Position numbers and translations under genes: made by a program. Below, piece after piece: positions 16,407 to 34,676 of a stretch of DNA of 50,291 nt; within the stretch, counting starts at the first letter, position 1, and each line of letters starts with the position of its first letter. Origin of the DNA: Limnochordia bacterium (lineage in GTDB: Bacteria > Bacillota > Limnochordia > Darwinibacteriales > DTU012); NCBI GenBank assembly GCA_007116145.1, contig SKJB01000067.1:1-50291 (forward strand). The letters run 5' to 3'. The notes beneath the pieces are model-generated. The model searched no databases. It saw only the letters and a list, made by a program, of their open reading frames with translations, and had not been told where the DNA came from.

Positions 16407-16787
16407 ATGAAGGAAGTAATGGCAGTGATTCGAATAAATATGATTAATGAGACCAAGCGTGCTTTGATTGATGCGGGAATTTCATCATTTACTGCACCTG
16501 GGAAAGTGCTAGGCCGTGGTAGGTGCCAAGTTGATTTCCAGTTTCTAACTGGAGAATTGCAAGAAGTGGCTCATCCTAGCAGCCATTTGACTACAGAAGC
16601 ACCGTTGATCGCTAAACGACTCGTAACCGTTGTGGTTCCAAACCACTTAGTTAAAACTGTAGTTGATACCATAATTACCACAAACCAAACAGGCCGACCG
16701 GGAGATGGGAAGATTTTTGTGTTACCAGTATTAGATTCTGTTAGAATCCGTAATGGTGAATGTGGCGATATGATATTAGATCAGTAA
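16407..16787 (+). CDS. nifI2: Nitrogenase regulatory PII-like protein NifI2
   Basis: This is the second PII paralogue of the nitrogenase switch. It is 126 aa, longer than NifI1 because of an extended T-loop (about residues 36-72, FLTGELQEVAHPSSHLTTEA). KRLVTVVVPNHLVKTVVDTI and GRPGDGKIFVLPVLDSVRIR are the PII C-terminal strands. The gene starts 13 bases after nifI1 with GGAGGG upstream. With NifI1 it binds NifDK directly in the studied methanogen system; that role is inferred here. Confidence 0.94.
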   Translation: MKEVMAVIRINMINETKRALIDAGISSFTAPGKVLGRGRCQVDFQFLTGELQEVAHPSSHLTTEAPLIAKRLVTVVVPNHLVKTVVDTIITTNQTGRPGDGKIFVLPVLDSVRIRNGECGDMILDQ

Positions 16788-16801
16788 GTGGAGGGATGAA
16801 G

Positions 16802-18430
16802 ATGCCAACAAACAGAAGATTAACTCCGGAGGAAATTAAACAAAATTTACTAGCGGCCTATCCTGTAAAAGTGGCTAGAAAGAGAGCGAAACACATTGTT
16901 ATCAATGATCCAACCCCGGAAACTATGCCAGAGATTGGGGCTAATGTGAGAACAATTCCGGGAATCATTACCCAGCGTGGTTGTACGTATGCAGGGTGTA
17001 AGGGTGTAGTGCTTGGTCCAACAAGGGATATAGTGAATATTACTCATGGGCCAATTGGATGTGGGTTTTACAGTTGGTTAACAAGGCGCAATCAGACCAG
17101 ACCGACTAGTGATGACGATGACAATTACATGACCTACTGTTTCTCGACGGACATGTCTGAGGAAAACATCGTATTCGGAGGCGAAAAGCGCCTTAAGCAA
17201 GCAATTCAAGAGGCCTATGATATCTTTAAACCAAAAGCAATTGGAATTTTCTCCACATGTCCCGTTGGTTTAATCGGTGATGATGTACATGCAGTAGCTA
17301 AGGAAATGAAGGAAAAATTAGGTATTAATATATTCGGTTTTAGTTGTGAGGGTTATAAAGGTGTTAGTCAGTCTGCTGGTCATCACATTGCTAACAACCA
17401 ATTATTCAAGCATGTGATCGGAACCGATGATACGCCTAGTGATGGAAAATATAGAATTAATTTGCTCGGTGAATACAATATTGGTGGTGACTCTTTTGAA
17501 ATTGAGAGAATTCTATCTAAGTGTGGGATAGATCTCGTGGCAACGTTTAGTGGTAATTCGAATTATGATGCTTTTGCCAATTCGCACATGGCTGATTTAA
17601 ACGTGATTATGTGTCATCGCTCGATTAACTATGTAGCGGAAATGATGGAGACAAAGTATGGAATTCCGTGGATAAAAGCTAATTTTATTGGAGCAAAAAG
17701 CACAGCAAAATCTCTGCGGAAAATTGCCCAATACTTTGAGGATCAAGAACTCATAGAGCGCGTAGAACAAGTAATTGCCGAAGAGATGCAGGAAGTTGAT
17801 AGAGTGCAAGGCGCTGCAAAAGCGCGCTGTATGGACAAAACTGCGATGTTATTTGTCGGTGGTTCTCGAGCTCATCATTATCAGGATTTGTTTGCAGAAA
17901 TTGGTATGAAGACGGTATGTGCTGGCTATGAATTTGGCCATCGAGATGACTATGAAGGTCGACGGGTGCTGCAAAGTATTAAGGTTGATGCGGATAGTCG
18001 TAGCATAGAAGAGATTCATGTGACACAAGATCCAGACAAACATAACCCACGGAAAACACCAGAGGAACTTGAAAGTCTGCAAGCTAAGGGGGTTTCATTT
18101 AAAGACTATCAAGGGTTAATGATTGATATGGATGAAAACACTTTAATTATTGATGATATTAGTCATTATGAAATGGAAAAGCTGCTTGACACCTATAAAC
18201 CTGCGGTCTTATGTGGCGGTATCAAAGAGAAGTATGCTGTGCAAAAAATGGGCATTCCCTGTAAGCAACTACACAACTATGATTATAGTGGTCCATATGC
18301 TGGATTTAAGGGAGCAATAAACTTCTATACGGATATTGATCAAATGGTAAATACAAGAATATGGAAGTTAATCACAGCACCGTGGCAAGCTCATCCTGAG
18401 TTAATCGCTACCTTTGCAAAGGAGGCATAA
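16802..18430 (+). CDS. nifD: Nitrogenase MoFe protein alpha chain NifD
   Basis: NifD holds the FeMo-cofactor and half of the P-cluster. P-cluster Cys are seen at 61, 87 and 153 (GCTYAGC, GPIGCG, STCPVG). The cofactor ligands are Cys271 (VIMCHRSINY) and His491 (QLHNYDYSGPY). The chain is 542 aa and includes the ~50-residue insertion (about 375-430) characteristic of the Clostridium pasteurianum-type enzyme. No anfG or vnfG is present, which supports a Mo enzyme. I chose the ATG at 16802 because GGAGGG ends 6 bases before it; an in-frame ATG at 16796 is too close. Confidence 0.95.
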   Translation: MPTNRRLTPEEIKQNLLAAYPVKVARKRAKHIVINDPTPETMPEIGANVRTIPGIITQRGCTYAGCKGVVLGPTRDIVNITHGPIGCGFYSWLTRRNQTRPTSDDDDNYMTYCFSTDMSEENIVFGGEKRLKQAIQEAYDIFKPKAIGIFSTCPVGLIGDDVHAVAKEMKEKLGINIFGFSCEGYKGVSQSAGHHIANNQLFKHVIGTDDTPSDGKYRINLLGEYNIGGDSFEIERILSKCGIDLVATFSGNSNYDAFANSHMADLNVIMCHRSINYVAEMMETKYGIPWIKANFIGAKSTAKSLRKIAQYFEDQELIERVEQVIAEEMQEVDRVQGAAKARCMDKTAMLFVGGSRAHHYQDLFAEIGMKTVCAGYEFGHRDDYEGRRVLQSIKVDADSRSIEEIHVTQDPDKHNPRKTPEELESLQAKGVSFKDYQGLMIDMDENTLIIDDISHYEMEKLLDTYKPAVLCGGIKEKYAVQKMGIPCKQLHNYDYSGPYAGFKGAINFYTDIDQMVNTRIWKLITAPWQAHPELIATFAKEA

Positions 18431-18432
18431 GC

Positions 18433-19809
18433 ATGTTATTAAGACATACAACAGATAAAATCCAGGAACGTAAGGCACTTGTTGTTAACCCGGCTAAGAC
18501 CTGTCAACCCATAGGGGCAATGTATGCAGCGTTAGGCATTCATCGCTGTTTGCCCCATAGTCATGGGTCCCAAGGGTGTTGCTCTTATCACCGCAGTACT
18601 TTAACAAGGCACTACAGAGAACCGATAATGGCTGCAACAAGCTCGTTTACGGAGGGGTCGTCAGTATTTGGTGGGCAAGCAAATTTACTAGAATCAATCA
18701 GCAACATTTTTACTGTCTATGATCCAGATATCATAGCTGTTCACACCACATGTTTATCAGAAACAATCGGTGATGATATCGCACAAATAATTGCCAAAGC
18801 GCAAGCCGACGGGAAAATTCCAGAAGGTAAATCGGTCATTCATGCGAACACACCGAGTTATGTTGGTTCCCACGTTACTGGATTTGCAAATATGGTTAAG
18901 AATATGGTTATGTATTTTTCGAAGTCTAGTGATCTGAAAAGAGAGCAGATAAACATTATTCCTGGGTGGGTCGAACCAGCGGATATGCGTGAGATGAAAC
19001 GCTTGACTACTGCTATGGGTATTAAAACTGTACTATTTCCCGATACATCTGATGTGTTGGACGCTCCCCAAACAGGAAGGCATCAGTTCTATCCTAAAGG
19101 TGGAGTAACTATACCGCAATTACAAACATCAGGGGACAGTAAAGCCACCATTTCCTTGGGGGAATTCACTTCCCTGCCAGCTGCGAAGGCATTAGATGCT
19201 AAGTGTAAAGTGCCCTTTCACAGTTTGGATATTCCGATTGGATTGACCGCTACGGATCGTTTTATCCAAACACTACACGACGTAACAGGTGCTGCAGTGC
19301 CAGATGAAATCACTGATGAGCGCGGTAAAATGGTCGATATCATTACTGATATGCAACAGTATTTTTATGGCAAACGAGTTGCTTTAGCGGGAGACCCAGA
19401 TCAGTTAATTCCGCTGACTGAGTTTTTAGTGACATTAGGAATGCAACCTGTCTATATAGTTACTGGTACACCAGGCAAGCGATTTGAGGAGCGGATGAGT
19501 GAGATATTAACAGATGCTGTTCCAGATGCTAAATGTAAGCAAGCGGGAGATATGTTCTTGTTGCACCAATGGATCAAGCAGGAATCTGTTGATTTATTAA
19601 TTGGAAATACCTATGGAAAATATATTGCTCGTGATGAAGATATTCCATTTATTCGTTTTGGTTTCCCGATTTTAGATAGGGTTGGTCACTCGTATCTTCC
19701 AAATGTTGGGTATGCGGGTGGAATACGATTATTGGAGAAATTGTTAAACGCAATCCTAGATCGTCAGGATAGTATGAGTTTAGAAGAGTCATTTGAATTA
19801 GTGATGTAA
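18433..19809 (+). CDS. nifK: Nitrogenase MoFe protein beta chain NifK
   Basis: NifK completes the MoFe tetramer and the P-cluster. Its Cys ligands are at 24 (CQPIGAMYA), 49 (SQGCCSYHR) and 107 (TTCLSETIGDD). At 458 aa it lacks the N-terminal ~50-residue extension of the Azotobacter chain, as in C. pasteurianum, which complements the insertion in NifD. It starts 2 bases after nifD with AAAGGAGG upstream, so translation is probably coupled. No nifE, nifN or nifB follows, so cofactor assembly genes must lie elsewhere. Confidence 0.95.
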   Translation: MLLRHTTDKIQERKALVVNPAKTCQPIGAMYAALGIHRCLPHSHGSQGCCSYHRSTLTRHYREPIMAATSSFTEGSSVFGGQANLLESISNIFTVYDPDIIAVHTTCLSETIGDDIAQIIAKAQADGKIPEGKSVIHANTPSYVGSHVTGFANMVKNMVMYFSKSSDLKREQINIIPGWVEPADMREMKRLTTAMGIKTVLFPDTSDVLDAPQTGRHQFYPKGGVTIPQLQTSGDSKATISLGEFTSLPAAKALDAKCKVPFHSLDIPIGLTATDRFIQTLHDVTGAAVPDEITDERGKMVDIITDMQQYFYGKRVALAGDPDQLIPLTEFLVTLGMQPVYIVTGTPGKRFEERMSEILTDAVPDAKCKQAGDMFLLHQWIKQESVDLLIGNTYGKYIARDEDIPFIRFGFPILDRVGHSYLPNVGYAGGIRLLEKLLNAILDRQDSMSLEESFELVM

Positions 19810-19857
19810 GTTGGAGGGTTAGGATGCGGATAATAGGAGTACGGAAGGATGATTGCT

Positions 19858-20160
19858 GTGGAAAAACCAAAGCACCATATATTTCTTTGTTCTAGTTCAC
19901 GAATGAGTGGGGAACCTAAAGGAGTATGTCATCGGAAAGATGCGAGGGATCTTGTTTTATACCTACAATCCGAACTCGATGACCGAGGAATGACGGACTG
20001 TCTTGTTTCCAATACTGGTTGTTTGAAACTATGCGACCATGGACCAGTTATGATCATTTACCCCGAAGGGTATTGGTATGGAAATATATGTGAAGATGGA
20101 ATTGATCGAATTTTGGACGCGCTTCAAGAAGGTAAACCAGAAGAAACACTATTAATTTAA
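19858..20160 (+). CDS. Thioredoxin-like [2Fe-2S] ferredoxin
   Basis: This matches the C. pasteurianum [2Fe-2S] ferredoxin type, which binds the MoFe protein and is tied to nitrogenase. Starting from the GTG at 19858 the protein begins MEKPKHHIFLC, the same length of N-terminus as the clostridial protein. Its cluster Cys then fall at 11, 24, 55 and 59 (NTGCLKLC), almost the same positions. GGAAGG lies 9 bases upstream. An in-frame ATG at 19849 is an alternative. Length is 100 aa. As the last gene of the nif operon it is probably an electron carrier or partner for NifDK. Confidence 0.88.
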   Translation: MEKPKHHIFLCSSSRMSGEPKGVCHRKDARDLVLYLQSELDDRGMTDCLVSNTGCLKLCDHGPVMIIYPEGYWYGNICEDGIDRILDALQEGKPEETLLI

Positions 20161-21672: not shown

Positions 21673-22896
21673 TTAATTGATTGCGTTATTTGACGTGATT
21701 ATTTGATTCCATACTCGTTTTATTTCCAGTCTGGTTGAAGCTGGTTCTTTTGAATAGAAGTCAAATTTGATCCGATTGATCACTTGCTGTGCTTGCTCTT
21801 CGCGACTGTCAAAAAAGACAACAATGTATTGGTTGTCGTGCCACTTTGTTAGCAAGTCATTATTTCGGATATTGGCCTCGATTGCAACACGGAGAGCTTC
21901 TTTAGTATTTTCTAGATCGTTAACGTTTGTGGAGCCGATGACGGATATACTTGCGCTCCAATATCCATTGCTACTATCTTCGTGTATGCTATTCTGCCTT
22001 AGTGGAATAGGGTGATTTTCTGGTTCGTAGCTTTGTTCACTTGGGCGAATAAGCCTAAGGTTAGTGCTTAAATTTTTTAGTTTGTTTTTGTCACTAAGCA
22101 GGGCCTGTTCGAGTAAGGTATTTACTGTCTCATCGGGTTGAATACCAATCTCAGGGTATATTTTTGATTCTAAGTACCGCTGATACTTATGTGCTTCTTT
22201 AATCTTGCTTGTCGATATTAAAGACTGAATGTAAAGGTGGTGAAATTGTTCTTCATATGGTTCAACGACTAATGCGGTCTCGCACAGTTTACGGATACTT
22301 TCTGGTTGGTTTAGTTTGCCAAGGTGCTCAGCTAATTCTAATGTGCAGTTTACATACAGTTGTTGATAGTAATTGCGAACTGGTGTTATCCAATTTAACG
22401 AGGTGTGTTCAGGAAGATACATTCCCTGATATAATGCGAGGGCTTGTCGATAGGCTGTTATTGCCTTTGCAGAATCCTTATTTCCAACTTCCTTGGCGTG
22501 TTTTGATAACGCTTCCATTTCATCCGTATCCAACCAAAATTGGGCCGAAGGATGAAATCGGTAAAAGCCTTGGTTCAACGTAATATATTGGTGAGTGCTG
22601 CTTGCCAGATTATTAGTGGTTAATGTTTTACGCAATCGGTAAATCAGGTTTTGTAAAGCGTGTTCTGGATCTACAATATCCTGGTCAGACCAGAGCATAT
22701 CAATTAATGCGGAACTAGGTATCATGCGGTTTCGGTGGGTTAGTAAATATCCGAACAACTCCCATAGTCGGTATGATTTTCGCTTTCCAGCAGTAATTAC
22801 ATGATCTCCTTTTATTATTTCAAATCTTCCCAACGTATATATTTTTAAGAAATCTCCCTTTGTGTTGACTTTAAATGAGGATACTTTATGATACAT
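21673..22896 (-). CDS. SARP/BTAD-type regulator with degenerate GGDEF-like tail
   Basis: Residues ~17-105 read as an OmpR-like winged helix (IYTLGRFEI, then LWELFGYLLTHRNRMIPSSALIDMLW and LIYRLRKTL). Residues ~115-265 are a bacterial transcriptional activator domain of TPR-like helices (YRQALALYQGMYLPE, CETALVVEPYEEQFHHLYIQ). The last ~95 residues resemble a diguanylate-cyclase fold, with WHDNQYIVVFF in the place of the GGDEF strand, so it is catalytically dead if related. There is no membrane segment. It is the last gene of the minus-strand secretin locus and probably controls it. The ATG at 22896 is used, although SARP proteins usually start nearer the IYTLGRF strand. Confidence 0.75.
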   Translation of the reverse strand: MYHKVSSFKVNTKGDFLKIYTLGRFEIIKGDHVITAGKRKSYRLWELFGYLLTHRNRMIPSSALIDMLWSDQDIVDPEHALQNLIYRLRKTLTTNNLASSTHQYITLNQGFYRFHPSAQFWLDTDEMEALSKHAKEVGNKDSAKAITAYRQALALYQGMYLPEHTSLNWITPVRNYYQQLYVNCTLELAEHLGKLNQPESIRKLCETALVVEPYEEQFHHLYIQSLISTSKIKEAHKYQRYLESKIYPEIGIQPDETVNTLLEQALLSDKNKLKNLSTNLRLIRPSEQSYEPENHPIPLRQNSIHEDSSNGYWSASISVIGSTNVNDLENTKEALRVAIEANIRNNDLLTKWHDNQYIVVFFDSREEQAQQVINRIKFDFYSKEPASTRLEIKRVWNQIITSNNAIN

Positions 22897-22947
22897 AGAC
22901 CTATCATCCTCCTCGGTTGTTATAAGAGTATTATCGCCCTGTGGTTG

Positions 22948-24210
22948 TCACCATAGTGATAAACGATATCCAACAAGTAAACGTTTGTTACCATTTTGAT
23001 CTACTTGATATTGGAGAACTACATAGTTATCATCGACAACTTCGTATCCTAAACTAGCCTGTGCTTGTTGTCGTTCTTTATCTTGTTCATAATGAAATGT
23101 AACTAGAAGACGGCTATAGCGCCATTCGGCTTGAGCCCACCAATAATTTTGAAAGCTGTATCCAGTCTTGGTACAATATGCTAATGGATAATACCCAGCT
23201 GATAAAGCGGTGTTAGGTGAAATCTCCACCCGATCACTTACTCCTAGTGCTACACTACTATCAGAGTCAGGGGTGTGAATTATCTGTATACCTACGTTCA
23301 AACCTTGATTGAACAAGGACTTGCTAAGACCAATTAAATACTTAGGCGTATTGATGGGGCGAGCAAGTATTTCGAAGAAAAGATGATCTTGCAGCCACCA
23401 ACGGAGATTAATGTTATCGGGTCCTAAGGGGTCTAGTGAAAGAAGTAATTTTACATGATTTTCTTTAACTAAAGGATCAGGTTCAGGCCACACAATATCT
23501 GATAAACCGGCGAGGCTTCCGATTTTTAGCGTTGATATGGATGGTAATTCAGACATTGTAATAGCCCTAATATATAGTACATAACACCTTTCGTTGCTGG
23601 CGGAAGCGGTCTGGAATGAACGATTCTGCGAAGAGCTGGCTTGCTGGTATAGTAATGCAATAGGTTGAGTAAATTCGCTAGTCAACCATACTTCAGTATT
23701 TACCTGAGTGTTGGTGGAGGTTTCTAGATTAATCTGTGTTAAGACCTGTTTGTTATGTTCTGCTACTTGAATCGGCGATAAAGACAGTTGCATGGATCCT
23801 CCATGTGGAGGTATGATTTGGCGAGTCGAGTATCCTTCTTCAATAAGTGTGATACGCGAAGTTTCTCCAACAGCAACAATAACTCCTGGATGCATAGCAG
23901 TGAGACTAGTGGTCGATTGCTTATTGTTTAGGGTACTAAGCGAAGATAACGGATGCGCTCCGATCATTTTTAGCATGTCTGCCTGATAGATGATCTGTAA
24001 TTCTGGGTTTGTGGGATCAATTAGACGTTCTGTTTTCATTTCGTCTAGACTAATATGCTGGTGTTGCATGGTGACGACCTCAACAATCTGCAGCTCGTAA
24101 ACTACCTGGCGAGTCGTGGAAAAATGCTCAGCGTGGACAGGAAGAGCTACTAGATAAATGAAGCTAAGTGTTAACAGACTGATTATCCTGCACGTATATT
24201 TTGTCATCAT
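22948..24210 (-). CDS. Exported protein with strand-rich, barrel-like C-terminus
   Basis: I do not recognise this family. A classical signal peptide spans residues 1-27, ending LPVHAEH. The middle (about 30-230) is Ser/Thr/Gln-rich and carries several VxxVxT-type strands. The last ~170 residues alternate polar and apolar residues in short strands (RLLVTFHYEQ, AQASLGYEVV, NYVVLQYQVD, RLLVGYRLSLW) and end in Trp, much like the closing strands of an outer-membrane barrel. The alternation register at the very end is not a perfect match to the proteobacterial signature. It starts 13 bases after the secretin gene and is surely co-transcribed. A secretin partner or pilotin-like role is only inference. 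Confidence 0.6.
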   Translation of the reverse strand: MMTKYTCRIISLLTLSFIYLVALPVHAEHFSTTRQVVYELQIVEVVTMQHQHISLDEMKTERLIDPTNPELQIIYQADMLKMIGAHPLSSLSTLNNKQSTTSLTAMHPGVIVAVGETSRITLIEEGYSTRQIIPPHGGSMQLSLSPIQVAEHNKQVLTQINLETSTNTQVNTEVWLTSEFTQPIALLYQQASSSQNRSFQTASASNERCYVLYIRAITMSELPSISTLKIGSLAGLSDIVWPEPDPLVKENHVKLLLSLDPLGPDNINLRWWLQDHLFFEILARPINTPKYLIGLSKSLFNQGLNVGIQIIHTPDSDSSVALGVSDRVEISPNTALSAGYYPLAYCTKTGYSFQNYWWAQAEWRYSRLLVTFHYEQDKERQQAQASLGYEVVDDNYVVLQYQVDQNGNKRLLVGYRLSLW

Positions 24211-24223
24211 TTATAATAACCCC

Positions 24224-25399
24224 CTATAAGATATCAACCGTAATAAAAATAAGAAGTTCCCTCTCTTCTTTCGTTTCAGCTTCATGGCTAAAGAGATAAC
24301 GCAAAATGGGTATGCTTCCGATAAGAGGGACTCTTCTTTGCTGATCACTTTGTTGTTCAAGTGTCATGCCAGCTAAGACTAAAGTTTGTCCATTTTGAGC
24401 ATAGACGGTGGTGGATACTTCGTTCCGTCGCACAGAGAAGCCTGTATTGTCTAAACGATTACCGCTATAATGGCTAACTTCGGGGGTGATTTTCAGTTTT
24501 ATCTCATTGGAGTTGCTAATTCTTGGTGTCGCAAAAAGAGAAACTCCTACATTAACTCGCTCTAGGTGGCTGCCTGCACCTGTTGTGTTAGGCATAATTA
24601 AGTACTGCGTTTCGCCGGAAAAAAGCTTAGCTGTACCTCGATCATCTACTACAACAGAAGGATTAGCAATGATTTCTGCTTTTTGCTGTCCTTCCATAAT
24701 TCGTAGTTTGCTTAGTAATTGACCGAAAATAGTAGAGCTCAAATTGAAGACATCACCATTATACCCAATGGCCGTTGTTGCAGTTGGGTTTAATTGATCA
24801 TCGCTAAATGATAGACTCCACGAGTCCAATCCTAACTCAGAAAGGGCTGACATTGATACTTCGGTTACTATTGCTTGGATCATGAGTTGTTGGGAGCGAC
24901 GATCAATTGCGTTTAGATCATTTGAAAATCGGGTTATGATTTCAGAGGGAGCTGTAATTGTAATTTTGTCCAAGTCGCGATTTGTTCGTAAAAACGCATC
25001 ATAGAAACTAGGGAGTAAATCCCTTGCTTCAGTAGCAGAAATGTATTGTAGAGGAAATGTCTTGGTTTCGGCTAAATGATAAAAACTAGCACTCTTAGGA
25101 TCTGCCATGCCAACTAGGTAGTAGTCGTCTATTTTTCGATAGCTATACCCCCCACCCAATAAGATCATGCTTAATGCTTTTTCCAGTGGTACATTCTCTA
25201 AATCCAGCGTAATAACCCCACGAACAGAATTGTCTACGATAATATTTACTCCTGTTTGCAAGACGATTTCTGTAATAGCTTCTCGAATGTCTGTATAAAA
25301 AAACAGGGTTGAAACTGTAGTTTCGTTTTCTGCTAATATTGGTTGACTCCACAGAATAAAACATAGTATCAAACATGCAAACAACTTTGCTTTCTTCAC
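24224..25399 (-). CDS. Short secretin (GspD/PilQ/HofQ superfamily)
   Basis: Secretins form large gated channels, normally in the outer membrane, for type II secretion, type IV pili or filamentous phage. A signal peptide ends near residue 23. An STN/N0-like domain follows (about 30-95, FFYTDIREAITEIVLQTGVNIIVD), then an N1-type domain (about 110-165, FPLQYISATEARDLLPSF). The secretin domain covers 170-391 and shows the hallmarks IIANPSVVVDDRGTAKLFSG, QTLVLAGM and the closing VPLIGSIPILRYLF plus ELLIFITVDIL. Length 391 aa is near HofQ and phage pIV, with no extra N-domains or S-domain. The GTG start has AGGAGGT 6-7 bases upstream. No secretion ATPase is in the window. Confidence 0.87.
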   Translation of the reverse strand: MKKAKLFACLILCFILWSQPILAENETTVSTLFFYTDIREAITEIVLQTGVNIIVDNSVRGVITLDLENVPLEKALSMILLGGGYSYRKIDDYYLVGMADPKSASFYHLAETKTFPLQYISATEARDLLPSFYDAFLRTNRDLDKITITAPSEIITRFSNDLNAIDRRSQQLMIQAIVTEVSMSALSELGLDSWSLSFSDDQLNPTATTAIGYNGDVFNLSSTIFGQLLSKLRIMEGQQKAEIIANPSVVVDDRGTAKLFSGETQYLIMPNTTGAGSHLERVNVGVSLFATPRISNSNEIKLKITPEVSHYSGNRLDNTGFSVRRNEVSTTVYAQNGQTLVLAGMTLEQQSDQQRRVPLIGSIPILRYLFSHEAETKEERELLIFITVDIL

Positions 25400-25509
25400 G
25401 TTGATGACCTCCTGATATTTGGGTTTGCTCCTTGTCCGTTTTACTGTAGTATATGTTTGTCCGTTCCATTTTATTCAATAACTGGTAAATATTTCTCCCA
25501 TAAGAGATT

Positions 25510-25541
25510 CAGAATCCGAAACGTTGTGGTTCCGGATTCTG
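25510..25541 (-). repeat. Hairpin between the chaperone-like and secretin genes
   Basis: CAGAATCCG (25510-25518) pairs with CGGATTCTG (25533-25541). There is no T tract on the minus strand, so it is more likely an RNA-processing or attenuation element than a full terminator. Confidence 0.55.
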
Positions 25542-25553
25542 AGAAGAGGCTAA

Positions 25554-27086
25554 CTATTTGATTTTCGTCGAATCAATCTCAAATGGCAGCGTTGCAGTAG
25601 CTATATTCTTGCTATCGTGTGTTAAATGTATTTCGGCAACATACTTACCAATATCTAAGGTTCTTGTGTTCCCTGCTAAGTACCCGCTAGTACTCGGTAA
25701 AATAGCGCTCACACCGTCTTGGATATGCAGTGGGACAGTTCGCTTTATAACGCCTTCTAAATCTTTAATATACATTACTCCGCTTGGTGTAATATGTGCG
25801 GGGCTCGTGTTTCGTACGACTAGGCTAAAGAGTAGAGATGAATTATCATCGGCAACATATTTAATGCTCTGAACATCAGCGGTATAAGTCCACCCATCGC
25901 CGACTAATACACGTAGAGGAATCGGATAAGAGTGTACTAACTCTCCATCAGTCGATAAAGCGTATACGATTAAGTTACCGTAATATCCACCTGGTTCAAG
26001 ACTTCGATCAGTCCGGAAGGTTAACACATTTCGCCCGTTGCGCTGTGAGGCTAACTCAAATTGTTGTTCTCCCCTAAATTGAATGTCAATTGCCTTATAG
26101 ACACAGTGAGTATAACCTTCCGATATCTCTTCTCCCCCGATAACAACTTGCATGGTTTTCGTGAAGTGGTTTTCGATCTGTAGTATTTGACTAATAGCTG
26201 CACCTGGCCGTAAAGCAATATTGATTGCTTCTGGTTCAATTTTGAGGATAGAGACTCGATCGCTTTGATCAAATTCATCTCCTGCTAGGGATAGCTTCTT
26301 ACTTTCAATTCGTTGTCTTCCATCAGCGTAACGAACAAATAATCGTAACTCGTAATCACCTGGAGCTAGGTATTTCGTGATCGGTCCGATAAAGTCTACT
26401 TTAGCACCAGGATAAATTGTAGTGCTTTCACGTTTAGCTTGCATGTTTGATGGTGTTCTTAATGTCGATCGCTCTATTAAACGTCTGTTCTGACCTCGAA
26501 TAGTCATCTCCATAGAAACAGGATACCGTAGAAGAGAAGGATTCTTAAAAGTAGCTTTCACTAATGGTTGTCGATTATCGTCTGCAATAATATCCCAGTG
26601 TACTACTTCTGCATATGGCCAAATACCGGGACTTTCAACTGTGATATTCAGTTGTATGGCATATCGCACAAGAAATTGAAGTCCGCTTTCGACACTATCG
26701 ACCTGTGGTTGAACCATTATTACAATTGAGTGTGAGCCTGCAGTATTATAAGGAACTTGGATTGTGCCGTTGACTGTTGTTGATGCATCGGGCGGAACAA
26801 CAACTTGCTTGTTTTCAAGAATAATCCATTCGGCAGGGGATTCTAGATGGCCTTCACTTAAGCTGAAACTGACGTCTCCTGTTGCAGATTGTATAGGTTG
26901 ATACAATTGTAAGTCGACTGTTTTCTGTGTGTCAGTTGTGGTCAAATTGAAAGAAAAAGAGCTAGTTTCTCCTGGGCGCACCTTTACGTTTAAAGACATG
27001 GGTTGTACATTTACTGCATCAACAGGAATACTTGCTGTTAGGAAACACAAATAAAACAGAACTACTAGCTTTAATGTTGTTTTCAT
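25554..27086 (-). CDS. Exported multi-domain beta-sandwich protein, chaperone-like
   Basis: A signal peptide covers residues 1-24 (ending IPVDA). The mature N-terminus (VQPMSLNVKVRPGETSSFSF, then VVPPDASTTVNGTIQVP and SHSIVIMVQPQ) has the strand pattern of DUF916/WxL-interacting and PapD-like pilus-chaperone domains. Two or three more beta-sandwich segments follow to residue 510. Unlike DUF916 proteins of Gram-positives, it has no C-terminal membrane anchor, so it is fully exported. The gene lies 178 bases after the small secreted protein gene. A role as chaperone or surface partner of that protein is inferred from pattern and position. Domain family naming needs a profile search. Confidence 0.65.
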   Translation of the reverse strand: MKTTLKLVVLFYLCFLTASIPVDAVNVQPMSLNVKVRPGETSSFSFNLTTTDTQKTVDLQLYQPIQSATGDVSFSLSEGHLESPAEWIILENKQVVVPPDASTTVNGTIQVPYNTAGSHSIVIMVQPQVDSVESGLQFLVRYAIQLNITVESPGIWPYAEVVHWDIIADDNRQPLVKATFKNPSLLRYPVSMEMTIRGQNRRLIERSTLRTPSNMQAKRESTTIYPGAKVDFIGPITKYLAPGDYELRLFVRYADGRQRIESKKLSLAGDEFDQSDRVSILKIEPEAINIALRPGAAISQILQIENHFTKTMQVVIGGEEISEGYTHCVYKAIDIQFRGEQQFELASQRNGRNVLTFRTDRSLEPGGYYGNLIVYALSTDGELVHSYPIPLRVLVGDGWTYTADVQSIKYVADDNSSLLFSLVVRNTSPAHITPSGVMYIKDLEGVIKRTVPLHIQDGVSAILPSTSGYLAGNTRTLDIGKYVAEIHLTHDSKNIATATLPFEIDSTKIK

Positions 27087-27181
27087 AATTCCACCATCCT
27101 ATATTAGTTTGTACTATGTATATGAAGCATGTACAATTATATGCCAACAATAAATAGTTAGAGGTATACTTTAATGCGAAT

Positions 27182-27217
27182 TAAAGAGCAGATTTCTGTC
27201 AGGAAATCTGCTCTTTA
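27182..27217 (-). terminator. 15-bp perfect hairpin behind the secreted-subunit gene
   Basis: TAAAGAGCAGATTTC (27182-27196) is the exact complement of 27203-27217 around a 6-base loop. On the minus strand the stem ends in CTCTTTAATT, a weak T tract, so read-through is likely. It would leave the first gene more abundant than those downstream. Confidence 0.65.
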
Positions 27218-27264
27218 GCCCTAGGATTTAATTGTATAGCGAGTAGCTTTTCAAATAGTAATGT

Positions 27265-27957
27265 CTATGGCGCTGCAACTACTGTTACAGTAATTGTTGC
27301 GGTGTAAGGCTTGTCAGCTTCAACATTACAGATCTCACTAAGATAAAAGCCGAATGGAATATCGTATTGGGTTGGAGTACAAGCTGCATAATCTTGGAAT
27401 ATGGTTTGTGTATTTGAATAATTCGTAGCGTTTAACCCCATCCATTCTACATATTCTCCGCCTTTATGGCTTGCTGCATACGTCTTGTCATATCCAAGTG
27501 AGCTAGGTAAACCTAGATCGCGGTTCCAAATGCCGAAGACTGTTGGTACTGTATTAGGCATCCAGTTTGAACCGTCGACTGAAAATGTAACATTCACTGG
27601 GGTATTAGCAAAGACTCGTACTGAACTTAAATTGTGTCCAGGATCACCACCAAAAACTTGTGCTTCTGGTCGTTCGCCTTCCTCTAGATCTCCGATTAAT
27701 TCTTCAAGTGCTGTGAGAAGGCTAGGTCCATCATTATAGTAGATGCCCTTTTCTCCGTTTAGGCTACCAAAGTCAAGAGACGCACTATCATTAAAGATAT
27801 CAATTCTTGCACGTTGTGCGAATTGAACCGTTACATCAAGAGTTTTACCCTCGCCATCAAGGTCGTTACCTAGATTAGGATTCCATGCAGCCATTGCCAT
27901 TGAGCCCAAGCTGAGTATTAGCATTAAAACTAATGTGAAACAGGTAAATTTTTTCAT
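27265..27957 (-). CDS. Secreted beta-rich protein, candidate surface subunit
   Basis: A signal peptide ends at about residue 23 (SLGSMAMA|A). The mature ~207 residues are acidic and beta-rich. VRVFANTPVNVTFSVDGSNW near the middle and the closing YTATITVTVVAAP resemble the last strands of WxL or spore-coat-U-like beta-sandwich domains. The only two mature Cys are in AACTPTQ and SEICNV and could form a disulfide. There is no sortase motif or membrane anchor. The start ATG has GGAGGAAT upstream. It is the first gene of the secretin locus and is followed by a hairpin, as expected of an abundant subunit. The exact family is not recognised. Confidence 0.6.
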   Translation of the reverse strand: MKKFTCFTLVLMLILSLGSMAMAAWNPNLGNDLDGEGKTLDVTVQFAQRARIDIFNDSASLDFGSLNGEKGIYYNDGPSLLTALEELIGDLEEGERPEAQVFGGDPGHNLSSVRVFANTPVNVTFSVDGSNWMPNTVPTVFGIWNRDLGLPSSLGYDKTYAASHKGGEYVEWMGLNATNYSNTQTIFQDYAACTPTQYDIPFGFYLSEICNVEADKPYTATITVTVVAAP

Positions 27958-28547: not shown

Positions 28548-29789
28548 ATGCAAAAACAAGGAGCTGTATCACAAATGCTAGAGGGATTCAAAATCGTTGA
28601 AGGTGGAATTACGAGCGCTAAAGGCTTTCATGCTAGTGGTTTATACTGTGGGATTAAGAAAAAGCGCTTAGATTTAGCTTGGTGTTACTCAGAAGTGCCA
28701 GCGAATGCTGCTGGTGTTTATACCATGAATCAGTTTCAAGCAGCACCTCTAGTCGTGACCAAAGCGAGTATTGCGGTGGAACAAAAGCTACAAGCCATTC
28801 TCGTTAACTCTGGTGTAGCCAATGCCTGTACTGGAGAACAAGGGTTAAGAGATGCTTATGCGATGCGTCAGCTATTAGCTGGGCACTTTCAGATCAAAGA
28901 TGAATATGTAGCTGTTACATCCACTGGTGTGATTGGTGATTTACTACCAATGGATAAGATTACCCAAGGAATTGCGCAAATCACCGATTGGCAAACCTGC
29001 ACAGAGCCTCACTTGTTTGAGCAAGCGATTATGACTACAGATCTAGTTTCGAAACGAGTAGCTGTAGAGACGATCATTGACGGTAAGGTCATCACCATTG
29101 GCGGTGCTGCAAAAGGTTCGGGAATGATTAAACCTAACATGGCCACCATGCTTGGCTTCGTCACAACCGATGCTGCTGTGGATCCACACAGCTTGCAAGC
29201 TGCATTGCGGCAGGTCACGGATGAATCCTTTAATATGATTGCTGTCGACGGGGATACCAGTACTAATGATATGGTCTTAGTATTAGCCAATGGAATGGCA
29301 GGTAATGACCTCTTAACTGCAGAACATCCAGAGTGGTCGAAGTTTTTAGCGGCTTTGCATCATGTCTGCCAGGAATTAGCCAAAAAAATAGCACGGGATG
29401 GCGAAGGGGCCACAAAGCTGATCGAAGTGCAGGTGAGTGGGGCGCGCAACGTAGAGGTGGCGCGGGGAATCGGCAAAACAATTATTATGTCAAGTTTAGT
29501 AAAAACAGCGATGTTTGGTAAGGATCCTAATTGGGGACGGATCGTTTGTGCTATAGGCTATAGTGGGCAAGAAATGGACCCGAATAAAGTGGAGGTATCC
29601 CTTGGACCGATTAACGTCTTTAAGAAAGGAGTTCCTACCCATTTTGATGAAGCCCAGGCGGTGAAATATCTAGAAGAGGAACATATCCAGATTTTTGTAG
29701 AGTTAGGATTAGGCGAGACCCAGGCCGTTGCTTGGGGATGCGATTTGACCTACGATTATGTGCGGATTAATGCAGCATATCGAACGTAA
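28548..29789 (+). CDS. argJ: Bifunctional ornithine acetyltransferase / N-acetylglutamate synthase
   Basis: ArgJ moves the acetyl group from N-acetylornithine to glutamate, giving the cyclic arginine pathway, and can also acetylate glutamate with acetyl-CoA. The autocleavage motif KPNMATML (about residues 190-197) splits the precursor before Thr, which becomes the nucleophile. GKDPNWGRIVCAIGYSG and the C-terminal YVRINAAYRT are family signatures. Length is 413 aa. It starts after AGGGGGTT at 28533-28540. It heads the run argJ-argD-argF; argC and argB are not in the window. Confidence 0.95.
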   Translation: MQKQGAVSQMLEGFKIVEGGITSAKGFHASGLYCGIKKKRLDLAWCYSEVPANAAGVYTMNQFQAAPLVVTKASIAVEQKLQAILVNSGVANACTGEQGLRDAYAMRQLLAGHFQIKDEYVAVTSTGVIGDLLPMDKITQGIAQITDWQTCTEPHLFEQAIMTTDLVSKRVAVETIIDGKVITIGGAAKGSGMIKPNMATMLGFVTTDAAVDPHSLQAALRQVTDESFNMIAVDGDTSTNDMVLVLANGMAGNDLLTAEHPEWSKFLAALHHVCQELAKKIARDGEGATKLIEVQVSGARNVEVARGIGKTIIMSSLVKTAMFGKDPNWGRIVCAIGYSGQEMDPNKVEVSLGPINVFKKGVPTHFDEAQAVKYLEEEHIQIFVELGLGETQAVAWGCDLTYDYVRINAAYRT

Positions 29790-29801
29790 GGAGGATGCTA
29801 A

Positions 29802-31010
29802 ATGGAAATCACCATGCCAAATCATCAAGCAATTATGGAAACCTATAATCGCTTTCCGGTGACCTTAGTTAAAGGGAAGGGTAGTCACGTCTGGGATGAT
29901 CAAGGCCACCAATATCTTGATTTTACTTCTGGGATTGCAACGTGTAATCTCGGTCATGTCCCCGATTATGTGCATGAGAAGTTAACCGCGCAAGTAGACA
30001 CACTCTGGCACTGTTCGAATTTATATCATATTCCGCCCCAGCAAGCCTTGGCCCAGTTATTAGTGGATCATAGCTGTGCGGACCAAGTCTTTTTCTGTAA
30101 CAGTGGAGCGGAAGCGAATGAAGGTGCGATTAAGCTCGCTCGGAAGTGGGGTAGAGAAACCAAAGGTGAGCAAGCGTATAACATTATTACCTTTAAACAG
30201 TCCTTCCACGGTCGTACCTTAGCCACATTGTCTGCCACTGGTCAAGCAAAGATTCAACAGGGGTTCGCACCCTTAGTCCAAGGATTTCAGTACTTACCTT
30301 ATAATGATAGTGATGCACTTGAGACTATTGATTACGATACAACCTGCGCGATTCTACTCGAAGTGGTGCAAGGTGAAGGCGGAGTGTTGCCAGCAGATCC
30401 CGATTGGTTAACCAAGCTCGCTAGCATTTGTCAGAAAAAAAATATGCTACTAATGATTGATGAAGTCCAAACGGGAATGGGTCGTACCGGAGAGCTCTTT
30501 GGCTATCAACACTTCTCTATCGAACCGGATGTTTTTACCTTAGCCAAAGGATTAGGCTCGGGGTTTCCTATTGGTGCAGTGCTTGCTAAACAACATGTAG
30601 CCAAACAGTTTCAACCAGGAACACATGGAAGCACCTTCGGTGGTAATCCCCTAGCTGTAACAGCTGGTCTTGCTACTTTAGAGTATATGTTAGCTCACAA
30701 TATTGCCAGTCAAGCAAACGAGCTAGGGCTGTACTTAAATTCCAAGCTCGCGCCGCTTGTCGCTAACTATTCGATTGTTGAGGCCATACGGGGCATGGGT
30801 TTGTTAAAGGGATTACTTGTGAGTGAACAGGCAGCTGAGATTGTCGCAGCTGCGCGTGCCCAAAGGTTGCTAATCCTCTTAGCTGGTCCTAATGTGGTGC
30901 GTATTTTGCCTCCACTGACCACGACCAAAATGGAAATAGATCAGGCTGTAGGGATCTTAGAAAGTATTTTTAAGAAAGGATTGATGGCAGATGTTAAATC
31001 CAACATATGA
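29802..31010 (+). CDS. argD: Acetylornithine aminotransferase
   Basis: A class III PLP aminotransferase that makes N-acetylornithine from the semialdehyde. The PLP-contacting NSGAEANEGAIKLARKW stretch is near residue 104. The acidic LMIDEVQTGMGRTG motif precedes the catalytic Lys in TLAKGLGSGFPIGA (about residue 250). GTHGSTFGGNPLA is the phosphate-binding loop. Length 402 aa is typical. AAGGAGG precedes the ATG, 12 bases after argJ. The 3' end overlaps argF by 20 bases. Confidence 0.95.
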   Translation: MEITMPNHQAIMETYNRFPVTLVKGKGSHVWDDQGHQYLDFTSGIATCNLGHVPDYVHEKLTAQVDTLWHCSNLYHIPPQQALAQLLVDHSCADQVFFCNSGAEANEGAIKLARKWGRETKGEQAYNIITFKQSFHGRTLATLSATGQAKIQQGFAPLVQGFQYLPYNDSDALETIDYDTTCAILLEVVQGEGGVLPADPDWLTKLASICQKKNMLLMIDEVQTGMGRTGELFGYQHFSIEPDVFTLAKGLGSGFPIGAVLAKQHVAKQFQPGTHGSTFGGNPLAVTAGLATLEYMLAHNIASQANELGLYLNSKLAPLVANYSIVEAIRGMGLLKGLLVSEQAAEIVAAARAQRLLILLAGPNVVRILPPLTTTKMEIDQAVGILESIFKKGLMADVKSNI

Positions 31011-31938
31011 CTTTAGAGGCCGAGATTTCCTCGCTTTAGGTGATTTTTCATCGGAAGAGATTCAGTTTCTCTTAGAGGAAGCAATTAAGTTAAAGCAAAT
31101 GCAGAAAAAGAGGATTCCCCATCCATATCTACAGGGTAAGGTGCTAGGTATGATATTCGAGAAATCATCCACACGTACTCGGGTATCCTTTGAAGTTGGC
31201 ATGTACCAACTAGGAGGCCAAGCCATATTCCTTAGTTCTAATGATATTCAGTTAGGACGCGGTGAGACCATCAGTGATACCGCACACGTGTTATCTCGTT
31301 ACGTAGATGGCATCATGATCCGGACGTTCGCCCATGCTAAGGTCGAGGAGTTGGCGAGTGTTGCATCGATCCCTGTGATTAATGGACTCACGGATACGCA
31401 TCATCCATGCCAAGTCTTAGCGGATTTATTGACTATTCTTGAACATAAAGGCAAGTTAGCTGGGTTAAAATTATGCTATGTCGGTGATGGTAACAACATG
31501 GCAAATTCGTTGCTAGAAGGCGCTGTTAAGGTAGGGATGGATATTGCCATTGCTACACCGGTAGGTTACGAACCTGACGAGCAGGTAGTGGCTCAGGTGC
31601 TAGCGTTAGCTGCTAAGAACGAAGTCGAGGTAACAATTACTACCGATCCCGTAGTAGCGATGCAAGATGCTGATGTAGTCTACACCGACGTCTGGGCAAG
31701 CATGGGTCAAGAGAGTGAGCAACAAAAGCGCTTAGCAGAATTTGCAGCCTATCAAGTAAATGGCAAACTAACCGCGCATGCGAAGTCTGATTTTATCTTT
31801 TTACATTGCTTGCCTGCCCATCGAGGAGAGGAAGTAAGTGTAGATATCGTCGATGGACCACACTCCGTTGTCTTTGATGAAGCCGAAAATCGCTTGCATG
31901 CACAAAAAGCTATTCTTAAAGCACTGATGGGGGGCTGA
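30991..31938 (+). CDS. argF: Ornithine carbamoyltransferase
   Basis: Joins ornithine and carbamoyl phosphate to citrulline. EKSSTRTRVSFEVGM carries the carbamoyl-phosphate site (STRT). HPCQVLADLLT is the HPxQ motif. VYTDVWASMGQE holds the ornithine-contacting Asp and SMG loop, and HCLPAHRGEEV is the C-terminal ornithine motif. Length 315 aa is normal. The ATG lies inside the end of argD, with AAAGGA about 11 bases upstream, so translation is coupled. Confidence 0.95.
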   Translation: MLNPTYDFRGRDFLALGDFSSEEIQFLLEEAIKLKQMQKKRIPHPYLQGKVLGMIFEKSSTRTRVSFEVGMYQLGGQAIFLSSNDIQLGRGETISDTAHVLSRYVDGIMIRTFAHAKVEELASVASIPVINGLTDTHHPCQVLADLLTILEHKGKLAGLKLCYVGDGNNMANSLLEGAVKVGMDIAIATPVGYEPDEQVVAQVLALAAKNEVEVTITTDPVVAMQDADVVYTDVWASMGQESEQQKRLAEFAAYQVNGKLTAHAKSDFIFLHCLPAHRGEEVSVDIVDGPHSVVFDEAENRLHAQKAILKALMGG

Positions 31939-32001
31939 ATAGAGTACCGGGTTAGGGTCAAGCGATTAGGGAGTAAGGGAGAATAATTTTGATTTTTTGG
32001 G

Positions 32002-32029
32002 TTGTTTTTCTTGTAATATGGTTTATTAT
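32002..32029 (+). promoter_or_regulatory. Possible promoter upstream of argG
   Basis: TTGTTT (32002-32007) and TATTAT (32024-32029) are 16 bases apart in the 142-base gap between argF and argG. Confidence 0.35.
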
Positions 32030-32080
32030 AGTAATTATGGATCTACAAAATTATACACTGAGCATAAGGGAGAGAATAAC

Positions 32081-33280
32081 ATGGCTAAAGAAAAAATTGT
32101 TTTAGCGTATTCAGGTGGATTAGATACATCTGTTGCGATTAAATGGATTCAGGACGAATATGGATATGATGTAATTGCTTGCGGCATCGATCTAGGGGAA
32201 GATAAAGATCCCGAGGCGCTGCGTGTTAAGGCAGAGAAAATTGGGGCAATTAAAGCCATCATGATCAACGGCAAGGAAGAGTTAGCTGAAGAATATGTTT
32301 TGCCAGCGCTGAAAGGCAATGCATTATATGAAGGTAAATACCCACTATCAACAGCTATCGGACGGCCGTTAATTGTTAAGAAGCTAGTAGAAGTAGCCCA
32401 TGCTGAAGGCGCCGTGGGAATTGCCCATGGTTGCACCGGTAAAGGCAACGACCAAGTACGGATCGAAGTTTGCATTCGCGCCCTTGACCCATCATTAAAA
32501 ATCTTAGCTGTCATTCGCGATTGGGGGATGTCACGCGAAGAGGAAATTGCATATGCCGAAACCCATAATATTCCTATTCCGATCAAGAAGGACAATCCAT
32601 TCTCAATCGATTCCAATATTTGGGGGCGAGCTTGTGAGGCTGGCGTTTTGGAGGATGCATGGGTAGAAGCGCCCGAAGCAGCTTACACAATGACCAATCC
32701 GATTGAAAAGACACCGGATCAACCAGAGTATCTAGACATAGAGTTTGTGCAAGGCCGCCCGGTAAGTCTTAACGGTGAAAAAATGGATCTCTTGCCCTTA
32801 ATTGAAACGCTTAATGAAATTGGTGGTAAGCATGGTGTGGGTCGGATTGATCACATTGAAAATCGACTTGTGGGGATTAAATCTCGCGAAGTCTATGAGA
32901 ATCCAGCAGCGTTGATCCTAATTAATGCGCATCGCGAGTTAGAATTTCTCACCCTTCCACGAGTAGTCACAGAGTTTAAAACAATTGTTGAACAGAAGTT
33001 TACCAATTTAATCTATGATGGTTTGTGGTTTTCGCCACTATTTCCGGCCATTGAAGCATTCATTAATGAAACCCAGCAGGTTGTTTCTGGTACGATTCGT
33101 GTTAAGCTCTTTAAGTCTAGCCATGTAGTAGTGGGACGCAAGTCGGAGAATAGCTTATATAGCGAAGCACTAGCTACTTACACAACAGATGATGATTTTG
33201 ATCACAAAGCAGCGGAAGGTTTCATTAAACTATGGGGCTTATCGACAGAAGTGTTTGCGCAAGTACACAAAAAGTCCTAA
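32081..33280 (+). CDS. argG: Argininosuccinate synthase
   Basis: Condenses citrulline and aspartate with ATP. The N-terminal [16 protein letters not shown] holds the PP-loop [20 protein letters not shown] is the citrulline/aspartate contact region and [12 protein letters not shown] is a family signature. Length 399 aa is usual. I chose the ATG at 32081 with AAGGGAGAG 6 bases upstream; the open frame runs back to 31997, but that extension is not family-like. argH follows after 13 bases. Confidence 0.95.
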
Positions 33281-33293
33281 GGGGGAATGAGCC

Positions 33294-34676
33294 ATGTCTA
33301 AGCTGTGGGGTGGACGTTTCACCAAGGAAACCAATAAACTAGTGGAGGAATTTACAGCTTCCATCACATTTGATCAACATTTAGCGGCTGAGGACATTCA
33401 AGGTAGCCTAGCACATGTGCAGATGCTCGTTGAATCTGCGATTATTTCGGCTGAGGACGGTGAGCAGATCAAGGCTGGGCTTACAAAGATCCTCGCACAA
33501 TTACATGCAGGTCTTTTAGAATTCGATGTGGCGCACGAGGATATTCATATGAATGTCGAGAAATTGCTGCTAGCTGAAATTGGACCTGTGGGTGGAAAGC
33601 TCCACACTGGTCGGAGTCGTAATGATCAAGTAGCAACAGATATGCATCTCTATCTCAAAAATAAAATTAGTGGGCTAATTGCTCTTTTAGTTGCAGTGCA
33701 AAACAGTATCGTTACGCAAGCGAAGAATAATTTAGAAACAATTATGCCAGGTTATACCCATCTACAACGAGCACAACCCATATCCTTTGCCCATCATCTT
33801 ATGGCGTATTTTTGGATGTTGCAACGTGATAAGGAACGCTTACACGATAGTTTAGCTCGAGTTGATATACTTCCATTAGGTGCGGGCGCTTTAGCCGGCA
33901 CGACCTTTCCCATCGACCGTCAGCGCACAGCCGAACTATTAGGGTTTTCGCAAGTTTATCCTAATAGTATGGACGCTGTTAGTGATCGGGATTTTATCAT
34001 CGAATTCCTTTCCAATGCGTCGATCTTAATGATGCATGTCTCGCGACTATCGGAAGAATTAATTATTTGGTCTAGTCAAGAATTCCAATTTGTAGAGCTA
34101 GATGATTCTTTTTGTACCGGTTCAAGTATCATGCCGCAGAAGAAAAACCCAGATGTTCCTGAATTATTACGAGCAAAGACGGGTCGCGTCTATGGCAATC
34201 TTATGGGTCTACTAACTGTGCTAAAGGGCTTACCGCTTGCGTATAATAAGGATATGCAGGAGGATAAGGAGGGAATGTTCGACACGGTAAAAACCGTAGA
34301 AGGAACACTCGCTTTGTTAGCACCCTTGCTTGCTACAATGCAGGTTCGAACAGATAAGATGGCGAAAGCAACCAGAGAAGATTACTCCAATGCGACGGAT
34401 ATTGCAGACTATCTCAGTAAGAAAGGACTGCCATTTCGCGATGCGCACGCAGTAATCGGGCAAATTGTGCTTTATGCTATTAAGGAACAGAAGTATCTAC
34501 TAGATTTAAAACTTGATGAGTATCAAAGATTTAGCACACTTTTTTGCGACGATATCTACGAGATTTTACAGCCGTTAGCAACAGTGAAGAGTCGTAATAG
34601 TTACGGCGGTACCGCTCCAGCACAAATCACAGAGCAGATAAAACTAGCTGAGCAAAAGTTGGATGCCAGGCTGTAA
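33294..34676 (+). CDS. argH: Argininosuccinate lyase
   Basis: Splits argininosuccinate to arginine and fumarate, the last step of the pathway. The fumarase/aspartase-superfamily signature [15 protein letters not shown] (about residue 281) is complete. [14 protein letters not shown] and [14 protein letters not shown] supply catalytic His and Thr regions. Length 460 aa is typical. AAGGGGGA lies 7 bases before the ATG. It is last in the arginine run; an unrelated membrane protein gene follows 14 bases later. Confidence 0.95.

Follow-up and report, generated by a model that had tools for sequence, protein, structure and literature searches.

The stretch of DNA analysed here, hereafter the window, comprises 50,291 nucleotides of contig SKJB01000067.1 from a Limnochordia bacterium (assembly GCA_007116145.1). 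Five open reading frames in the ORF list of the window, A to E, span 21673-27957. All of them lie on one strand, as the original prediction from this DNA had described, and that strand is the minus strand. The host genome is a 164-contig assembly of 2.76 Mb and 96.6% completeness; it encodes Omp85, and a Spo0A_C match (1.4e-36) supports the view that the host is a spore-former. Limnochordia have been reported to be diderm (PMC11456536). As read from the translations, the five genes are flanked, at 16760-20160 and 28548-34676 of the window, by nif-like genes (nitrogenase-like subunits and a ferredoxin) with a PAS-MCP gene, and by an arginine biosynthesis cluster. In the direction of reading, the features of the locus are as follows:

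27265-27957, minus strand: A, a small secreted beta-rich protein of 230 aa, the proposed cargo or fibre subunit
27817-27849, minus strand: candidate donor strand in A, residues 37-47 (GKTLDVTVQFA), proposed from its alternating hydrophobics and its position outside the DSSP-assigned strands of the model
27177-27220, minus strand: terminator-like hairpin with a 15-bp stem between A and B (-24.2 kcal/mol for a 95-base stretch)
25554-27086, minus strand: B, an exported, tandem-duplicated WxLIP-type (DUF916/DUF3324) protein of 510 aa with no anchor
26271-27023, minus strand: B repeat 1, residues 22-272, overlapping a WxLIP_PGBD-like region at residues 19-114, from profile comparison of the halves
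25557-26270, minus strand: B repeat 2, residues 273-510, from the same comparison
25509-25542, minus strand: hairpin with a 14-bp stem between B and C
24224-25399, minus strand: C, a minimal secretin of 391 aa, with STN/N0 at 51-96, N1 at 112-171 (weak) and the secretin core at 235-391 with a VPLIGSIPILRYLF motif
22948-24210, minus strand: D, a secretin-barrel hybrid of 420 aa
23557-24114, minus strand: degenerate secretin core of D, residues 33-218, from hhalign of C against D; N0/N1 and the VPxLGxIPxL motif are missing
22954-23460, minus strand: predicted 12-strand outer-membrane beta-barrel of D, residues 251-419, from an AF2 model and fold match; D ends in Trp
21673-22896, minus strand: E, a SARP/BTAD-type regulator of 407 aa, accessory

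On inspection, each of A to D carries a Sec-type signal peptide at its N-terminus, ordinary rather than class III in kind, and no pilin or peptidase Pfam match was found in the five window proteins. The locus encodes neither a T2SSE-family ATPase nor an inner-membrane platform, in keeping with the proposal that it is not a type II secretion, type IV pilus or Tad locus.

The family of C is borne out by matches to the Pfam models Secretin (PF00263; 5e-38, 130.8 bits) and STN (2.3e-8); no pilotin or lipoprotein for it was evident. Its best-scoring profile is PilQ, at 152 bits under a cut-off of 284, which would fit an alternative in which C stands in for PilQ in the type IV pilus of the genome and A, B and D are accessories. 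A pilus locus without PilQ in genome G000, and a divergent relative that adjoins pilus genes (L093), point the same way. Against this, relatives carry both a C-type secretin of about 390-450 aa beside B and a separate pilus-locus PilQ of about 530-560 aa some 7-8 kb from PilB, the Tad secretins being longer again (800-1000 aa). In a tree of secretin cores (one unrooted FastTree run with several weak nodes), pilus, Tad and C43 secretins group together, apart from those linked to B. The ATPases weigh in the same direction: a T2SSE match better than 1e-20 is missing from 13 of the 50 genomes with B in the close set, the single-contig genomes G051 and G057 included, and no T2SSE-type (PilB/GspE/CpaF-type) ATPase scored over the cut-off in B- and C-positive genomes such as G018, G029, G051 and G057. 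The module thus persists without a PilB/GspE/CpaF-type ATPase, in closed genomes as elsewhere, and other energy sources outside the T2SSE family are possible. We consider the substitute-PilQ explanation improbable and reject C as the pilus secretin, since relatives have a separate PilQ and the module occurs without pilus ATPases; on the sequence comparisons, C is a secretin type distinct from those that serve type IV pili and Tad systems in this lineage. A second genomic secretin (C43) was considered as a close paralogue of C and set aside, as it branches away in the tree. Genomes G000, G002 and G004 have pilus genes and no clear pilus secretin, so that C could also serve the pilus there. The pilus locus of G000 (L165, G000:C79, 6300-14146) holds PilB, PilT, PilC, PilM, a PilN-like gene, ComFB and a prepilin peptidase, with PilQ missing, unlike the loci L167, L168 and L170 of relatives.

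D gave no Pfam match. It had been taken for an exported protein ending in barrel-like strands and a Trp, and both the barrel and the Trp stand; the description was incomplete, however, in that a degenerate secretin core is fused ahead of a 12-strand barrel, and the reading of D as an exported protein of unknown kind gives way to that of a secretin-barrel hybrid. Profile comparison by hhalign pairs residues 169-390 of C with residues 33-218 of D (P 94.6, E 7e-8). Long D homologues (560 aa) from L055, L056 and L057 match window C directly, mainly in the N0/N1 region (2.5e-19, 1.6e-12 and 4e-27), the STN domain being kept in three long forms of D. The AF2 model of D (mean pLDDT 77.6, about 90 in the barrel) places 12 strands at residues 251-419, which VIA-align matched to NanC (Z 18.1, rmsd 2.8, 165 aligned), KdgM (Z 17.5) and FapF (Z 14.1) at about 10% sequence identity, these rows covering the barrel only and barely probing the N-terminal half by fold. 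Neither the window proteins nor the D homologues matched the usher family (PF00577). E, with Pfam matches to BTAD (9e-12) and Trans_reg_C (2.8e-6), is the SARP/BTAD regulator it was called at the outset, but it adjoins the module in just 18 of 51 loci and drops out of the proposed core.

The architecture of B departs in part from the DUF916/PapD-like, anchorless protein first proposed: its DUF916-type character and missing anchor hold, whereas the PapD comparison is replaced by a duplicated WxLIP-type unit. By hhalign, one half of B is homologous to the other (P 99.0, E 2e-18). Both are similar to proteins made of a single unit, about 270 aa long (P 99.7); one such protein, the homologue at L156, has a C-terminal membrane helix. 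No hydrophobic segment was seen at the end of window B when its sequence was inspected. The match of window B to WxLIP_PGBD (DUF916), at 19.3 bits, falls under the Pfam cut-off of 27.3; among 24 B homologues, seven match this family (best 2.2e-5) and one matches WxLIP_HBD. PapD Pfam families found no match in the B homologues at E up to 0.1, where other Ig-type domains and WxLIP_PGBD were matched, and a PDB sequence search with B returned no significant match. Published work describes WxLIP as a pair of Ig-like domains with a helix that binds both peptidoglycan and WxL; in its AlphaFold2 models, a hairpin strand of WxLIP fills a gap in WxL (PMC10599100). B is best read, from its sequence, as a doubled, unanchored protein of WxLIP type.

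The expectation that A would be a secreted beta-rich protein with one Cys pair agrees with its signal peptide, identified by inspection, and with the single pair of the mature protein (C193/C210). A belongs to a fast-evolving exported family, and the loci of relatives mostly hold several copies (mean 2.5). Window A had no Pfam match, DUF4402 was the sole Pfam match of the family (4 of 42 members, best 0.0075), and the WxL domain (PF13731) was matched by none of the 42 at E up to 1. As earlier matches had included signal-peptide artefacts, the family profile used for control was stripped of signal peptides; it made 38 matches among 296 ORFs of held-out loci, whereas the 152 ORFs of the control loci (161 kb) gave none, which indicates that the family is not merely a collection of small exported proteins. 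Matches of the A family to antibody light chains were rejected as such artefacts, and those of its sequence profile to CsuE (E 0.003) and Caf1 (E 0.008-0.05) are borderline and mixed with them.

The AF2 model of A (pLDDT 72.6) has as its best VIA-align neighbours cannula subunits, TasA, CsuA/B (Z 6.4), the PapG pilin (Z 6.2) and archaeal threads, at Z of 6-8 with a maximum of 8.2; these values are near the noise level for the tool, and Foldseek gave an E of 8e-3 at best. Donor-strand complementation is the mode of assembly of most of these neighbours. The predicted fold of A is weakly suggestive of a donor-strand fibre subunit, and in the single-chain AF2 model its N-terminal segment falls outside the assigned strands. 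The hairpin between A and B suggests separate or higher-level transcription of A, and a terminator-like hairpin 3' of A would be expected if a subunit were made in excess of its machinery; a promoter scan found sites no more frequently than in shuffled sequence.

A B homologue was found in 55 of 151 genomes, a figure that counts the host's own. The 51 distinct type-1 loci, among them those at contig ends, yielded A in 50 cases, C and D in 43 each and E in 18; where at least 5 kb was available on both sides of B (24 loci), C and an A-type gene were present in all 24, D in 22 and E in eight. All 86 of the C and D genes found lie on the strand of B. These locus counts are lower bounds, as the greedy ORF picker misses genes in high-GC contigs, for example C in L099, where a secretin was nonetheless found. 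Repetition of the A-D block in dozens of genomes puts the association far beyond chance; whether the genes part in related genomes had been named as a check, and A to D stay together where E does not. Hosts include Limnochordia and Halanaerobiales, the module being present also in Halanaerobacter jeridensis and a Halanaerobiaceae MAG.

Variation around this plan is considerable. A divergent type 2, in 20 loci, combines A and C with a B roughly 550 aa long and has a small barrel-like protein where D would be expected; these small proteins (D', 230-300 aa) were rejected as detectable homologues of the D barrel (hhalign P 17-37, no relation). At L157 (697-5525), L163 (2258-7211) and L164 (4402-8712), an A-like gene and a half-length B (about 270-300 aa) accompany a protein of 700-1100 aa with CarboxypepD_reg/SdrD_B domains that looks barrel-like by eye, a set that may represent a third variant whose pore resembles an usher; as usher relatives the large proteins were discarded, having no usher Pfam match. 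L155 (325-6812) has in a row an exported small protein, a half-length B and two proteins with LysM domains, the first of 1052 aa and the second a secretin of 563 aa. Pairs of an A-like gene and a weakly B-like one lie at L158 (5758-7821) and L159 (5816-7841) in genomes G278 and G092, which contain no secretin at all. As A adjoins B, half-B or B-like genes even without a secretin, the A-B pair looks like the core and the pore like a diderm addition.

The distribution of B links the module to the outer membrane. Omp85 was found in 102 of the 398 genomes of a phylum-wide sample, and these take in every one of the 40 genomes with a strong B (E up to 1e-30; p 2e-27, phylogeny ignored); outside the host's own class the figure is 29 of 29, in 12 families (p 2e-21, phylogeny again ignored). 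Strong D matches are confined to genomes with a strong B.

We propose, with a probability of roughly 0.5, that A to D form a module for export across the outer membrane and assembly at the surface, one that follows chaperone-usher logic with a secretin as its pore. The co-localisation of A to D upholds the composition of the chaperone-plus-pore surface system envisaged in the original prediction, with A the likely subunit; export of A through C and its polymerisation are steps that we infer. Judging by its signal peptide, A would be exported by Sec, and in the periplasm the double Ig-like B would bind and cap it, much as WxLIP is predicted to complete the WxL beta-sandwich. C, a secretin by family, would assemble into a small gated ring in the outer membrane, where D may insert by its 12-strand barrel and dock its degenerate secretin core on C as an anchor, assembly factor or gate. 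A would leave through C and assemble outside into fibres or a coat, probably by donor-strand exchange; no PilB/GspE-type ATPase would be required, as the carrier genomes without one indicate, and E probably regulates expression where present. The simplest reading would take A-B as the old core, a subunit and its complementing partner, and C-D as the exit through the outer membrane.

A differing account, which we regard as unlikely, sees the four proteins as a static complex of the envelope that would correspond, in diderms, to the WxL clusters: A would be fastened by B to peptidoglycan or to the outer membrane, and the C-D ring would act like a porin or as a tether, with no export route for A. 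The resemblance of the B halves to WxLIP, described as binding peptidoglycan and WxL, is in its favour, as are the A-B pairs without a secretin (in G092 without Omp85 too) and the joining of half-B with a LysM secretin at L155; yet B has no transmembrane anchor of the WxLIP kind, and the canonical secretin core in 24 of 24 fully sampled type-1 loci suggests that a folded or large substrate passes. Less probable still, and in our view very improbable, is an export route for other cargo (polysaccharide, DNA or enzymes), in which A would serve the pore as an accessory or a plug. In its favour, A is no more than a candidate substrate of C, and the D barrel is structurally closest to the oligosaccharide porins NanC and KdgM; that match may nevertheless reflect a shared 12-strand fold and no more, and several diversified copies of A per locus are what one would expect of subunits exposed at the surface rather than of a conserved component of the pore.

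The proposed module was compared with the closest known systems. Classical and archaic chaperone-usher pili (Fim/Pap, Csu) share its proposed logic of a Sec-exported subunit, an Ig-like periplasmic partner and an outer-membrane pore with no cytoplasmic ATPase, and A has weak fold or sequence similarity to CsuA/B, CsuE, the PapG pilin and Caf1; the module differs in having no usher or PapD-family match, a pore of secretin plus secretin-barrel hybrid, and a duplicated WxLIP-type B. WxL/WxLIP (DUF916-DUF3324) clusters of Gram-positive Bacillota (PMC10599100) likewise set WxLIP-type units beside small exported beta-rich proteins, whereas here B is duplicated and has no transmembrane helix, the A family matches no WxL model at E up to 1, and outer-membrane proteins are part of the set. 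With the type IV filament superfamily (T4P, T2SS, Tad; PMC6668835) the module shares a secretin whose nearest profile is PilQ, but not the ATPase, platform, prepilin or prepilin peptidase, and it is present in genomes without the ATPase. FapF, the functional-amyloid exporter, and the small porins NanC and KdgM have a 12-strand barrel like that of the C-terminal half of D, which differs in its degenerate secretin core before the barrel and its low sequence identity to them. Six pilus-type secretin systems have been counted in diderm Firmicutes (Denise et al., PMC6668835), and secretins of diderm Firmicutes were mentioned solely as PilQ by Antunes et al. (PMC5007114). The literature searched, which took in no preprints and few subscription papers, held no description of an A-B-C-D module, as had been supposed. 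On its sequences, the module lacks at least one tested defining feature of each known system considered; its novelty is one of composition, its function being putative.

More tentatively, at somewhat less than even odds, the module may represent a new class of motor-free outer-membrane export and assembly, driven by subunit folding or donor-strand exchange, in which a secretin-type pore and a secretin-barrel chimera replace the usher, and which would go far back in the diderm Bacillota and share ancestry with the monoderm WxL/WxLIP pair. To our knowledge a secretin without a motor of any kind would be unusual, which counts against the export and assembly module proposed above. As a rule secretins belong to pilus or secretion machines that an ATPase drives, and a widespread motor-free module would change what secretins are presumed to require. 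D, with intermediates that keep N0/N1, is a rare case in which the conversion of a ring protein into another kind of protein can still be traced. A-B with a pore in Omp85-positive Bacillota, and without one in some that are Omp85-negative, gives a handle on surface systems after outer-membrane loss, the fate of which is an open question for Firmicutes (PMC5007114).

Other secretins were met in the same genomes. At L088 (G000:C43, 1-6291) a secretin cut by the contig end precedes an ABC ATPase, a permease like MacB/FtsX and an RHS/YD-repeat protein of 1092 aa, and in G051 two near-identical secretins (L174 and L175) lie beside very large ORFs; these possibly belong to another secretin-linked system.
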